Origin: a virus | Virus record (IMG/VR): IMGVR_UViG_3300025687_000190 | Coordinates: 1-31,957 of that record | Direction: 5' to 3' (one strand) | DNA length: 31,957 nt | Part shown: positions 5,270-31,957 of the stretch, one piece after another | Layout: each line of letters begins with the position of its first letter | Numbering within the stretch: position 1 is the first letter of the stretch | Notes under the pieces: generated by a model | What the model was told of the DNA's origin: nothing | What the model saw: only the letters and a program-made list of their open reading frames with translations | Database searches by the model: none | Made by a program: the position numbers and the translations under genes

Positions 5270-8200
5270 ATGGCTACACTTGCACAATTACAAAATAGTT
5301 TAAAAAATGCTCAAAACAATCTACAATATACCAAAGACCGAATTGCGGCTGGTATTCGAGACCCTTCTAATGGAGAAGTTGATGGCGCTAAAGAGGACGC
5401 AGAAAGACAAGCACAAAATTATCTGGTAAAATATCAAAAACAAATTGATGACTATACGGCACAAATAGCGCAGTTACAAGGTACGACTACTGGTACTACT
5501 GGTACTACTGCTACTACTGGTACTACTGGTACTACTGGTACTACTGATACTACTGGTACTACTGGTACTACTGATACTACTGGTGCTACTGGTACAGCAA
5601 CTGGTACTGATGTTTCAATTGATCTTCTTCTGGGTTCACCGGAAGATGCTAGACGACTAGAGCAATTAATAAAATATGATCCTACCCAGTTAACAGATGA
5701 AGAAAAAACTGAGTTAGAAACCTTAAGAGGTAGGACACCTTTTGTAACTAGCGGTGGGGAAAGCTTTTCGGCTGAAGCGGCTACTTCCAAATATAGTGAT
5801 CTTTTAAGACAGAGACCCGATACTTTAACAGATGCAGACAGAGAGTATATTGCTGAATACAGAGCTAAATATGGTTATGCATCTCCTATTCAACTAGCAG
5901 AACCTGAACAACCGGCAATTTTAGACAGAACAACAGCATTAATGGAGGGCGTTACCCCAGAAGGTGAGCCCTACTTAACAGATGCTATGACAGTAACAAC
6001 AGAAAAAACAGATACAACAACTGACACAGGTCAATTTTTAGGTGGCACTACGGGTCAAATTTCAGCTCCCGTAGATAAAGATACAACATCAGCAAGTCAA
6101 ACATCCGCAGTAGCTCCTACTGAACGAGACGCAGCTACATATACAGCTGCTACTATCAGCACCGATGTTAAAAAAGAGTTAGAAGCAATTGATCCTGCAA
6201 CAGGAAAGTTATCAGAGGAAGCTAAGGCTGTTGCCGCACAGATGTCTCCCTCTGAACTTGCGCAACTAAATTTATCTGCAGCTCAATTAGATACAATTCG
6301 AGAGGTTGCTAATGTACCTGACCTTACAGTAGAAGAAGGTCAACTTGTTACGGGTGCAAAAGCCGATAAAAAACCTCAAGAGGAAGCAGCCCAGACATCC
6401 TATGAAAGCACCGTGCAGGCTGCTCAGGGTAGAATAGGAGCAGAAGAACTTATAAACGCAAGAGAAATGGGCTTGCAGATTGATGCACCTGTACAGGCTG
6501 TAGCTGCGTCTATGGATGCTCTAAATAAAGATGCATATGCTAGAGCAGCACAGGGTACTTTTGATGGCATTCTTGCTACTGCTGAGCAGGGTGTAGTAGA
6601 AGCTATGCAAACTGTGCAAGGTCAAATGGCACAGCTAATGGATCAATTTAATAATGGTACTCCTGCTTGGGCAGCAGGGGCTATGAGAGCAGCTAATGCT
6701 GCTATGGCTGCTAGGGGCATTGGAGGCAGCAGCATTGCAGGTGCAGCTATTATACAAGCAGCTATGGAATCTGCTGTTCCTATTGCTCAAGCTGATGCTG
6801 GTGCCTTTCAACAGATGGCTTTAACCAATCTTAATAATAAGCAGCAAGTATCTCTTGCTAATGCAGCAGCACAACAGAATATAACGCTAACTAATTTAAA
6901 CAACAGACAGCAGGCAGCATTACAAAACTCAGCTAATGCTTTTGCATTACAGTCTCAAAATCTATCAAACCAACAATCTGTTGTATTAGCAAATGCACAG
7001 ATTGCTGCTGCTGTTCAACAAAAGAATTTAGATGTAAGGACACAGACAGCACTAGCAAATGCTGCACGTTTTGCTGAAGTTAATAATATTAATCTAAGCT
7101 ATAGGCAGCAGGCTAATTTACAAAGGTCTGCTGAAACGTTACAGATTGAAACTGCTAACTTAAGCAATAACCAACAGACTGCTCTTGCTAATCTACAAGT
7201 AAGAGCAGCACTTGTTGGGCAAGAGTTAACAAATGAACAACAGGCTAGAACCCTTAATGCTGCTAGAATTAGCGAGATTGCCAATCTTAATTTTTCAGCT
7301 GACCAACAGCGGGCAATAGAAAATGCCAGACTTGCCCAGACAGTTGATTTAGCTAATCTTACAAATAGACAGGCTAAAGTTATGGCCGATGCAGCAGCTA
7401 TGTCTCAGATGGATTTGACTAATCTTAACAACAGACAACAAGCCGCTGCACAGAACGCGCAGTCATTTCTACAAATGGATTTGTCTAACCTAAGTAATCA
7501 ACAACAAAAACTCATGTTTGATGCGCAGGCTTTAGTAAATACCATGCTGTCCGATCAAGCAGCAGAAAATGCTGCTGAACAATTTAATGCTACCAGCGAA
7601 AATCAAGTAACTCAATTCTTTGATTCTTTAACGGCAACCATTAGTCAATTTAATGCTAATCAAGCTAATGCTATCAGTCAGTATAATGCTGGCCAAGCTA
7701 ATGCTATGGCTCAGTTTAATGCTAATTTATACCAGCAGTATCAACAGTATAACGCTTCAAATGCTTTGGTTGTTGACCAAAGTAATGCTACATGGCGTAG
7801 ACAAGTAGCTACAGCAGATACTGCTGCTATCAATAGGGCAAATGAATTAAATGCTCGTTCTACTTTAGAACTATCTACGTTAGCATATAACAATATGTGG
7901 GGAATGTACAAAGACATGTTTGAGTTTGCTTTTCAAGCAGAGCAAGCAGATTTAACTAGAGCAAATAATATTCAAACAGCACAAATTAGTGCGACAGCAG
8001 CTGAGAATAGTGCTGCTGGCAGTGCTTTTGGTAGTATTGCAGGATCACTCATTGGCGGTGCTTTTAGTTTGTTTAGCGATATGAAATTAAAAACTAATAT
8101 CAAGGAAGTTAAAGCATTCAAAAATGGAATTAAAATGTATACATGGGACTGGAAGAAAGAAGCTACAGACTTAGCAGACACTCGCCAAAAAGCAGGCTTC

Positions 8201-8308
8201 ATTGCGCAGAATGTTTTAAAGATATACCCAGACCTTGTAGTTAAAGATGAAGATAGTGGCTATCTTACTGTAAATTATGGCGGAGTACTAAAGAAATGTA
8301 TGGCTTAG
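5270..8308 (+). CDS. Long hendecad-repeat virion protein with C-terminal S74 domain, 1012 aa
   Basis: Domains in order: a coiled-coil start (1-70); a Gly-Thr-Thr linker from a 9-bp DNA repeat (about 71-114); an acidic, Thr-rich region (115-500); eleven tandem 22-residue repeats of the form NLxNRQQxxLxNA (520-761); seven 11-residue repeats starting Q[FYS]N or QFF (771-847); a Gly/Ala hydrophobic stretch (about 914-935); and a short S74 domain (936-1012) with the SDMKLK box (Ser936, Lys941), AGFIAQNVLKIYPDLVV and a terminal NYGGVL. The 22/11 periodicity predicts very long straight or right-handed helices. A virion role is supported by context. S74 suggests an exposed or self-processing multimer. 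It overlaps the next gene by 13 bases. Confidence 0.75.
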   Translation: MATLAQLQNSLKNAQNNLQYTKDRIAAGIRDPSNGEVDGAKEDAERQAQNYLVKYQKQIDDYTAQIAQLQGTTTGTTGTTATTGTTGTTGTTDTTGTTGTTDTTGATGTATGTDVSIDLLLGSPEDARRLEQLIKYDPTQLTDEEKTELETLRGRTPFVTSGGESFSAEAATSKYSDLLRQRPDTLTDADREYIAEYRAKYGYASPIQLAEPEQPAILDRTTALMEGVTPEGEPYLTDAMTVTTEKTDTTTDTGQFLGGTTGQISAPVDKDTTSASQTSAVAPTERDAATYTAATISTDVKKELEAIDPATGKLSEEAKAVAAQMSPSELAQLNLSAAQLDTIREVANVPDLTVEEGQLVTGAKADKKPQEEAAQTSYESTVQAAQGRIGAEELINAREMGLQIDAPVQAVAASMDALNKDAYARAAQGTFDGILATAEQGVVEAMQTVQGQMAQLMDQFNNGTPAWAAGAMRAANAAMAARGIGGSSIAGAAIIQAAMESAVPIAQADAGAFQQMALTNLNNKQQVSLANAAAQQNITLTNLNNRQQAALQNSANAFALQSQNLSNQQSVVLANAQIAAAVQQKNLDVRTQTALANAARFAEVNNINLSYRQQANLQRSAETLQIETANLSNNQQTALANLQVRAALVGQELTNEQQARTLNAARISEIANLNFSADQQRAIENARLAQTVDLANLTNRQAKVMADAAAMSQMDLTNLNNRQQAAAQNAQSFLQMDLSNLSNQQQKLMFDAQALVNTMLSDQAAENAAEQFNATSENQVTQFFDSLTATISQFNANQANAISQYNAGQANAMAQFNANLYQQYQQYNASNALVVDQSNATWRRQVATADTAAINRANELNARSTLELSTLAYNNMWGMYKDMFEFAFQAEQADLTRANNIQTAQISATAAENSAAGSAFGSIAGSLIGGAFSLFSDMKLKTNIKEVKAFKNGIKMYTWDWKKEATDLADTRQKAGFIAQNVLKIYPDLVVKDEDSGYLTVNYGGVLKKCMA
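5480..5611 (+). repeat. In-frame 9-bp tandem repeat encoding Gly-Thr-Thr
   Basis: Units of GGTACTACT, with variants GCTACTACT and GATACTACT, run through this stretch for about 14 copies and encode GTT, ATT and DTT triplets. The unit is a multiple of three, so copy-number change would keep the frame open and only lengthen or shorten the linker of the 1012-residue virion protein. It degrades at its 3' end (GGTGCTACTGGTACAGCA). Confidence 0.9.
6827..7552 (+). repeat. Eleven tandem 66-bp units (22-residue protein repeats)
   Basis: Residues 520-761 of the 1012-residue protein split without any gap into eleven 22-residue units. Most begin NL[NSDT] and share QQ at positions 6-7, a hydrophobic residue near 10 and N/A near 12-13. 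Examples of unit starts are NLNNKQQVSLANA, NLNNRQQAALQNS, NLSNNQQTALANL and NLSNQQQKLMFDA. The DNA is diverged, so this is an old protein-level repeat rather than a fresh DNA expansion. Twenty-two residues equal two hendecads. Confidence 0.85.
7580..7810 (+). repeat. Seven tandem 33-bp units (11-residue hendecads)
   Basis: Residues 771-847 of the same protein split into seven 11-residue units: QFNATSENQVT, QFFDSLTATIS, QFNANQANAIS, QYNAGQANAMA, QFNANLYQQYQ, QYNASNALVVD and QSNATWRRQVA. They follow the 22-residue array after a 9-residue break, which shows that the basic building unit of the rod is 11 residues. Confidence 0.8.
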
Positions 8309-25237: not shown

Positions 25238-25314
25238 TGGCGCACCCTAGAGGACTCGAACCTCTGACCCACAGATTAGAAGTCTGTTGCTCTATCCAAC
25301 TGAGCTAAGAGTGC
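25238..25314 (-). tRNA. tRNA-Arg (anticodon UCU), 77 nt with encoded CCA
   Basis: The cloverleaf is complete: acceptor GCACTCT/AGGGTGC (one G-T pair), D arm GCTC/GAGC, anticodon stem ACAGA/TCTGT with loop CTTCTAA, T arm AGAGG-TTCGAGT-CCTCT, discriminator G and an encoded CCA. The anticodon TCT (25280-25278) reads AGA and, by wobble, AGG. The phage uses AGA very often for Arg, and the repeat genes at 31138-31855 use AGG heavily, so the tRNA probably supports translation in a host where these codons are rare. Confidence 0.95.
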
Positions 25315-31137: not shown

Positions 31138-31305
31138 CTAGCCAGACCTAGACCCAGACCTAGACCTAGACCCAGACCAAGGCCCAGACCAAGACCTAGA
31201 CCTAGACTTAGACCAAAGCCTAGACCCAGACCCAGACCTAGACCTAGGCCTAGGCCTAGACCCAGACCAAGACATAGACCTGTACTTGGTTCGTTTAGTT
31301 GCCAT
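31138..31305 (-). CDS. Ser-X dipeptide repeat protein, copy A, 55 aa
   Basis: After the start MATKRTKYR, every even residue from 10 to 54 is Ser (19 of 23) or a near-codon replacement (Pro three times, Leu once). Odd residues are mostly Arg, Gly and Trp, with single Met and Lys. All Ser codons are TCT. The ribosome site is AGGAGAAACATCT, whose TAG-GAG overlaps the stop of copy B. The protein is very basic, probably disordered, and has no cysteines or acidic residues. I know no family with this design; it recalls SR/RGG-type RNA-binding low-complexity tails only in composition. Confidence 0.8.
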   Translation of the reverse strand: MATKRTKYRSMSWSGSRPRPRSRSGSGSRLWSKSRSRSWSGPWSGSRSRSGSRSG

Positions 31306-31316
31306 AGATGTTTCTC

Positions 31317-31478
31317 CTAGTCAGACCAAGACCAAGACACAGGCCAAGACTCAGACCCAGACCTAGACACAGGCCAAGACACAGACACAGACCTAGACCT
31401 AAACCAAGACATAGACATAGTCCTAGACTCAGACCCAGACTTAGACCTAGACCTGTACTTGGTTCGCTTAGTTGCCAT
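31317..31478 (-). CDS. Ser-X dipeptide repeat protein, copy B, 53 aa
   Basis: The start MATKRTKYR is identical to copy A, while the repeat differs. Even positions 10-52 are Ser (18 of 22) with Thr20, Phe26, Pro36 and Pro46. Odd positions add Glu, Val and Met to Arg, Trp, Gly and Lys, so this copy is less basic. It ends SWSD before TAG. The site TAGGAGGAAACACGT precedes the ATG and includes the stop of copy C. This copy has the most varied X residues, suggesting it is older or under looser constraint. Confidence 0.8.
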   Translation of the reverse strand: MATKRTKYRSRSKSGSESRTMSMSWFRSRSVSVSWPVSRSGSESWPVSWSWSD

Positions 31479-31490
31479 ACGTGTTTCCTC

Positions 31491-31688
31491 CTAGTCAGAC
31501 CTAGACCCAGACATAGACTCAGGCCCAGACCAAGAGCCAGACCAAGACCAAGACCCAGACCCAGACCTAGACCTAGACCAAGAACCAGACCTAGACCTAG
31601 GCCTAGACCCAGACCAAGACCAAGACCTAGACACAGACCCAGACGCAGACCTAGACCAAGCCCTGTACTTGATTCGTTTAGTCACCAT
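31491..31688 (-). CDS. Ser-X dipeptide repeat protein, copy C, 65 aa
   Basis: This is the longest copy. The start MVTKRIKYR differs from copies A and B by two residues. Even positions 12-64 are all Ser except Pro30 and Pro56. Odd positions are dominated by Trp, Gly and Arg, with Ala15, Val19, Glu57 and Met59. It ends GSRSD then TAG. TAGGAGGAAGAACT is an excellent ribosome site and includes the stop of copy D. Seven tryptophans in 65 residues is a very high content. Confidence 0.82.
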   Translation of the reverse strand: MVTKRIKYRAWSRSASGSVSRSWSWSGSRPRSRSGSWSRSRSGSGSWSWSGSWSGPESMSGSRSD

Positions 31689-31699
31689 AGTTCTTCCTC

Positions 31700-31855
31700 C
31701 TAATCAGACCCAGACCCAGACCTAGACAAAGACCAAGACCCAGACTCAAACCTAGACCCAGACATAGACCAAGACCTAGACAAAGACCTAGACCAAGACA
31801 AAGGCCAAGACCCAGACCAAGACCGAGCCTTGTACTTGATTCGTTTAGTCACCAT
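31700..31855 (-). CDS. Ser-X dipeptide repeat protein, copy D, 51 aa
   Basis: This is the first copy in transcription order. The start MVTKRIKYK matches copy C. Even positions 12-50 are Ser except Pro18 and Phe36; odd positions are Arg, Trp, Gly and Leu, plus Met and Glu. It ends GSGSD then TAG. A longer GTG-started frame exists, but it runs through the end of the upstream gene, so I use ATG 31855. The ribosome site is weaker than in the other copies (GGAG 13 bases upstream, inside the end of the preceding gene), so translation may depend on coupling to that gene, whose stop is four bases away. Confidence 0.78.
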   Translation of the reverse strand: MVTKRIKYKARSWSGSWPLSWSRSLSRSWSMSGSRFESGSWSLSRSGSGSD

Positions 31856-31859
31856 AGTT

Positions 31860-31957
31860 CTACCACCACTCCGGCTGTTGGGTTTTCCATTTAGCAAAGG
31901 AAGCCTTGGCCCCCCTGTAATAAGCACGATATGCTTCTACACAATCGTCCCTCTTAT
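31860..31957 (-). CDS. C-terminal end of an upstream early gene (partial)
   Basis: A frame open from the right window edge encodes 31 residues, including CVEAYRAYYRGAKASFAKWK and ending QQPEWW before TAG. The amphipathic helix and aromatic end look like real protein, and the stop lies four bases before the first Ser-X gene, supporting coupled translation. The family cannot be told from this fragment. Confidence 0.6.
   Translation of the reverse strand, partial: KRDDCVEAYRAYYRGAKASFAKWKTQQPEWW

Follow-up and report, generated by a model that had tools for sequence, protein, structure and literature searches.

The described systems closest to the locus reported here are the Sm/LSm/Hfq rings, the RS/RG-rich low-complexity domains (those of SR proteins, the tails of SmB/D1/D3 and FUS-type proteins), the variable proteins of diversity-generating retroelements, the plain (TCTCGG)n repeats of bacteria and the Type II toxin-antitoxin operons. 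In archaeal Sm proteins, the residues that contact RNA are Asp-35 and Asn-39 in the Sm1 motif and Arg-63 in the Sm2 motif (PMC10221803). The locus compared here with these systems is almost certainly, from its sequence and conservation, part of a protein-level two-component module that joins an Sm-like gene to one or more genes for proteins in which serine alternates with a variable residue (Ser-X). We found no paper in the literature on an Sm-like plus Ser-X module. The Sm-like partner has no sequence match above threshold in Pfam, PHROG, NCBIfam or the PDB, Sm models included, and the Ser-X protein likewise has none above threshold in the sequence libraries, Pfam included. The module is absent from the annotated libraries and the literature searched.

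The window, by which we mean the whole 31,957-base IMG/VR virus record, carries four Ser-X genes on its minus strand, each with a short basic leader that runs into (S-X)n: gene A (31700..31855; 51 aa, leader MVTKRIKYKA, pI 11.7), gene B (31491..31688; 65 aa, MVTKRIKYRA, pI 12.0), gene C (31317..31478; 53 aa, MATKRTKYR, pI 11.6) and gene D (31138..31305; 55 aa, MATKRTKYR, pI 12.0). All four had been listed in a preliminary description with these lengths and the common leader M[AV]TKR[TI]KY, and all are present; a scan of the 32-kb window finds no other Ser-X stretch. The fusion of stop codon and ribosome site (TAGGAG) that it reported is found on the minus strand at the A/B junction (31689..31702, where the stop of gene A is fused to the Shine-Dalgarno sequence of gene B, TAGGAGGAAGAACTATG), the B/C junction (31479..31493, TAGGAGGAAACACGTATG) and the C/D junction (31306..31319, TAGGAGAAACATCTATG), and again after gene D. 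A ribosome site for each gene is therefore confirmed for B, C and D, but is weaker for A, which has a distant GGAG only. The alternation holds in its register, with no Ser on any X position in the four genes, but 14 of the 94 ‘Ser’ positions are occupied by Pro, Ala, Phe, Thr or Leu, which leaves ~85% Ser, so that the term ‘strictly alternating Ser’ was a slight overstatement; these replacements arise by single-base changes of TCT. The genes are built from TCT-NGG hexamers in which N is usually A, G or T, and TRF reads all four as a single 6-nt array. The window also contains a 9-nt repeat in 12 copies (ACTACTGGT, 5482-5595), which encodes a Thr/Gly-rich stretch within a 1012-aa protein (5270-8308).

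The same four genes are found in IMG/VR contig 3300025647_000468 (loci L004 and L011), which extends past the window edge and has two further Ser-X copies ~2.8 kb upstream of the four; the virus of the window therefore has at least six Ser-X genes. Its Sm-like partner (L004:1467-1730) lies outside the window and precedes the two upstream copies. The gene adjoining the array upstream belongs to the pyrimidine-dimer DNA glycosylase family (Pyr_excise, PF03013, E 5e-7; phrog_624, DNA binding protein); the window holds its 3' end (31860..31955, minus strand), and it is complete in L004:4122-4616 (165 aa). Other neighbours in this virus are an L5 gp82-like gene and, at a greater distance, thymidylate synthase ThyX. 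Loci L006-L010, L012, L013 and L015 share the leader of the window genes, and L009 has a near-identical orthologue of gene B with 8 mismatches. To judge from the DNA polymerase, which is 52-60% identical over its full length to those of CRP-1, CRP-345, HMO-2011 and others, and from the integrase-primase-helicase gene order common to the window phage and the HMO-2011/CRP phages, the backbone is of HMO-2011 type. A tRNA-Arg(TCT) gene is located at 25238-25314 (minus strand), with the same anticodon found in L009, L012, L013, L041, L060, L100 and L120; it could help to decode the AGG/AGA codons that are abundant in the arrays, which is suggestive, yet such tRNAs are common in phages. Another module-bearing phage contig has 18 tRNA genes in ~4 kb (L060:1024-4915). 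Contigs often end in or beside arrays (L298, L312, L318, L371, L372 and the right edge of the window), which suggests assembly breaks caused by the repeats or array variation within the population.

Across viruses, at least 119 stretches matched a scan for five TCTNGG hexamers. N is diverse in 83 loci; ahead of most arrays there is a start codon with a short leader. These leaders are lineage-specific (for example MIKKSIYKRNIWS, MIRGKKQKW, MITKRTRWRRRS and MNAAIIRAGLD). The Ser-X ORFs consist of leader and array alone, without an RRM domain, and have a median length of 64 aa (5-95% range 36-94, 238 unique ORFs). Arg (30%), Gly (29%) and Trp (27%) make up most X residues in near-random order; the relative R/G/W composition is 0.35/0.34/0.31, 94% of loci use all three, and the counts are loosely controlled (dispersion 1.58). 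The proteins are basic (pI ~12, net charge +10) and contain ~12% Trp. The preliminary description had counted frameshifts or stops in related phages as evidence against these frames. None were seen in several hundred related ORFs, with just 12 of 4,600 S.S.S triples out of register, and the view that these are real coding genes is supported. The largest array cluster, in the 14.8-kb locus L017, has at least 14 Ser-X genes with the leader ITKR[TS][RK]WRR. In total, the two-gene module spans hundreds of IMG/VR contigs; no cultured representative was found, and the GenBank metagenomic phages MW202825 and MW202573 hold both genes while their annotation misses the module. The earlier statement that no phage family of this design is known is correct as far as annotated families go, but among uncultured phages (IMG/VR) such genes are widespread.

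An all-vs-all BLASTP comparison of the flanking ORFs identified one small gene common to 53 of the 83 array loci. The gene shares the strand of the array and usually lies immediately upstream of it. Its two subfamilies, i and ii, align profile-to-profile at 97.9% probability. The preliminary description missed this partner, which lies outside the window, as well as the turnover among six Ser codons and the R/G/W alphabet. When IMG/VR was searched with the partner alone, using bait alignments drawn from array-bearing loci in a database that contains near-duplicates, a Ser-X gene lay within 1 kb in 144 of 158 partner loci (~90%). In family ii the count is 72 of 78; in three of the six exceptions the contig stops within 90 nt, and in two of these an array or leader can be seen to begin, and 3/78 loci have no array despite available flank. 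In family i, scanned with alignment A5 since A1 was too diverse, a Ser-X ORF lies within 1 kb in 72 of 80 loci; four of the eight exceptions end within 250 nt, three of these with a short or cut array, and 4/80 have none despite available flank. Sense Ser-X stretches in family ii loci number ~90 in 161 kb near the partner versus 9 in 373 kb far from it. The two genes overlap by 4 nt (ATGA) in 45 of 102 pairs and are separated by -4 to +2 nt in 68, which indicates translational coupling. In some family ii loci, the array is immediately upstream of the partner.

The partner is predicted by AlphaFold2 with pLDDT of 92.7 (family i) and 91.3 (family ii) as an N-terminal helix followed by a five-stranded small barrel, an arrangement that, in these models, places it in the Sm/LSm/Hfq fold. 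For both families, the best 50 Foldseek matches in the PDB are Sm/LSm entries or complexes with an Sm-fold chain; 57 matches have E<1e-3 for family ii and none for family i (best E 1.2e-3), whose fold matches are modest (TM mostly 0.54-0.65). A viral structure library yields mostly unnamed phage proteins as matches. An Sm1-like motif, YxYxGxLxGVN, is present. By eye, GVNxxCV stands in for the Asp..Asn stretch and AIESFG for the Arg region, and RNA binding by the partner is doubtful because the canonical Sm RNA-contact residues are apparently not conserved. The gene is under purifying selection (dN/dS 0.03-0.22 in most close pairs). Its product is acidic, with a pI of ~5 versus ~12 for the Ser-X proteins, and this complementary charge, together with the coupling of the genes, suggests that the two proteins bind each other. 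We consider it probable that they are direct partners.

The neighbours of the module include helicase, topoisomerase, primase, Sak4- and Erf-like annealing proteins, exonuclease and DNA methyltransferase genes. These replication and recombination functions place it in the early/replication region, as had been proposed for the array. The module was not found in the plasmids searched, and a search of 777 bacterial genomes found next to none of it, so that it has the appearance of a phage module. Two Patescibacteria MAG contigs (L156 and L186) have an array plus an Sm-like gene and are phage-like in appearance; they are the exceptions among the hexamer matches in bacterial genomes, which are otherwise nearly all plain repeats with a fixed N and were rejected as background. 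A survey of 380 genomes of the phylum of the Patescibacteria MAG gave one match and a survey of 397 genomes of the Leisingera family gave no match, and with such near-absence no host can be assigned. Pure (TCTCGG)n with fixed N recurs in many Rhodobacteraceae genomes (L130, L146, L149, L154, L181, L195 and others) and is a repeat separate from the module. A match in the Synechococcus phage S-SCSM1 is weak and short and falls within a large gene for a ‘virulence associated protein’ (VrlC); a relation to Ser-X is unsupported.

The main rival explanation is that the Trp/Arg-rich Ser-X protein poisons the host through its membrane, ribosome or nucleic acid and that the acidic Sm-like protein, encoded first, neutralises it. 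The arrangement is the typical antitoxin-toxin order, with a small acidic protein upstream of a basic one and a 4-nt overlap, and antimicrobial peptides have a similar Trp/Arg-rich cationic composition. However, several different Ser-X copies per genome, their free order and their very fast turnover would be unusual for a toxin, the module was not found in the plasmids searched and is rarely seen in the host genomes surveyed, and in a few loci Ser-X precedes its partner. We therefore regard a toxin and its neutraliser as unlikely, though it is the alternative that survives best.

The DNA of the arrays changes while the encoded pattern stays the same. The dominant Ser codon across the pairs is TCT in 63, TCG in 19, AGC in 13, TCA in 5, AGT in 1 and TCC in 1; TCN and AGY codons have nothing in common except serine. 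The codon is uniform inside arrays (96.7% purity) and differs between sister phages, with 27 changes required by parsimony on the partner tree. Well-supported sister pairs with different Ser codons include L288 (AGC) and L292 (TCT), and L302 (TCA) and L303 (TCT) with support of 100/99; the leaders of L288 and L292 are related (...IGNINTLYWS) despite the change. The choice of codon follows contig GC (0.40 for TCT versus ~0.48 for TCG/AGC, p = 5e-6). Arg is encoded by AGG or CGG but seldom by both (72, 18 and 11 pairs), and in L288 Lys replaces Arg at the X position. The X codons are nearly always NGG, Gly being GGG in 841 of 889 cases, and synonymous variation within an array is scarce. This near-universality of NGG may follow from Trp having TGG as its single codon and the R and G words being one first-base change away. 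In L309 (215-2100), which has at least six tandem Ser-X genes with the X codons CGT/TAT/TGT/CTT, NGG is largely gone while Arg and an aromatic residue are retained. Because the Ser codon turns over under a constant pattern, it is the amino-acid pattern that is kept: the Ser-X protein is evidently selected for alternation and R/G/W composition, with the order left free. The simplest reading is that arrays have been regrown repeatedly from new seed hexamers toward one amino-acid pattern. When the partners are 94-100% identical in nucleotide sequence, the arrays behind them often show no better alignment than shuffled words do, while those of L009 and L015 retain some similarity. Repeated 5-word blocks are 2.8-fold enriched over shuffles, which is a trace of block duplication. 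Two further readings of the NGG codons were set aside. The first NGG occurs at a median of codon 9, outside the usual 5' window for peptidyl-tRNA drop-off, a role kept as a lead only; the resemblance to a Cas9 PAM (NGG) decoy is taken as coincidence.

The same rapid change could mean that a host defence recognises or is baited by the Ser-X protein and that the Sm-like protein presents the bait, making the arrays a hypervariable counter-defence decoy. The frequent failure of arrays behind near-identical partners to align better than shuffled words, together with the early-region location, would fit such a role. Yet tandem repeats turn over fast anyway, with no need for an arms race, and the dominance of three words with a maintained composition is unlike an antigen under diversifying selection. 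An unsystematic look at the neighbours turned up no defence or anti-defence gene. We regard the decoy as quite improbable. Least probable, at a very small chance, is a DNA or RNA repeat element with an incidental open frame (a replication or recombination site, a G-rich structure, a ring-protein site every 6 nt or a PAM decoy): the GG every 6 nt given by NGG and GGG codons and the scarcity of synonymous variation inside an array speak for it, but it is largely refuted. A DNA-level role for the hexamer was rejected given the turnover among all six Ser codons and the loss of NGG in L309. The first three bases vary freely while Ser stays encoded, so neither the other frames nor the other strand are conserved; leaders, start codons, coupling and in-frame stops accompany the arrays; and NGG is explained by the single Trp codon and by words that interconvert at the first base.

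The mechanism we favour combines an acidic Sm-like oligomer with a cationic, Trp-rich, nucleic-acid-binding scaffold, a reading that as a whole falls just short of an even chance. Possibly in the form of a ring, the acidic Sm-like protein would bind or chaperone the basic Ser-X chains, and these would act as a multivalent sticker-spacer scaffold, with Arg and Trp as stickers and Ser and Gly as spacers, to coat or condense the nucleic acid of the phage in early replication. Additional tandem copies, as in the window, may raise dose or valency. The short-repeat arrays turn over very fast, apparently by regrowth from new seed hexamers. A multivalent scaffold that binds nucleic acid is what the sticker and spacer composition suggests, and such a scaffold would be expected to be insensitive to order. 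This role, one of those in the preliminary description, is plausible by composition, and we assign it to Ser-X tentatively, at somewhat less than even likelihood; host takeover and RNA-polymerase binding, also listed there, have no specific support. A disordered scaffold could use Ser, Arg, Gly and Trp in random order, so the alternation may point to an architecture of beta-strands or to a beta-strand face; it may also be a by-product of repeat growth in 6-nt units.

Regardless of its role, the module is an unannotated and widespread phage system of which the window array is a local case. A protein pattern that different DNA repeats have produced anew many times offers a rare natural experiment in selection on composition and periodicity instead of sequence. 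If the scaffold role is true, Ser-X would be a minimal sticker-spacer protein made by nature, with its Sm-like partner built in, and one could test directly how Sm rings, low-complexity proteins and phage replication are connected. A broader proposal, which we consider rather doubtful, is that the module represents a prokaryotic counterpart of RNP or condensate machines, in which an Sm-like oligomer and an order-free Ser-[Arg/Gly/Trp] polymer assemble early phage nucleic-acid compartments and the polymer gene is regrown from a single seed hexamer with only composition and alternation kept.

Compared with known systems, the partner resembles Sm/LSm/Hfq rings in its predicted helix and five-stranded barrel, its best PDB matches and its Sm1-like motif; it differs in being acidic, in having no sequence match above threshold, in RNA-contact residues that are not evidently kept and in its pairing with a Ser-X gene. 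The Ser-X proteins, like the RS/RG-rich low-complexity domains, are Ser/Arg/Gly-rich, cationic and insensitive to order, with aromatic and Arg stickers. In contrast to those domains, they are free phage proteins of 40-100 aa with strict dipeptide alternation, Trp and no RRM. Arg, the residue paired with Ser in SR/RS tracts, accounts for 30% of X in Ser-X, alongside two other main residues. Diversity-generating retroelements also provide phages with hypervariable protein segments, whereas Ser-X varies through 3-word repeats, length and whole-codon turnover; instead of adenine-directed substitution on a fixed scaffold, the scaffold Ser codons themselves are replaced between sister phages and lengths change. 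Plain bacterial (TCTCGG)n has an identical hexamer frame that can be read as (SR)n, but with N fixed, no recognisable leader and no partner seen. As in Type II toxin-antitoxin operons, the module is a small overlapping pair with the acidic protein first (45/102 with a 4-nt overlap; pI ~5 versus ~12), while its second gene is repetitive, hypervariable and present in multiple copies.
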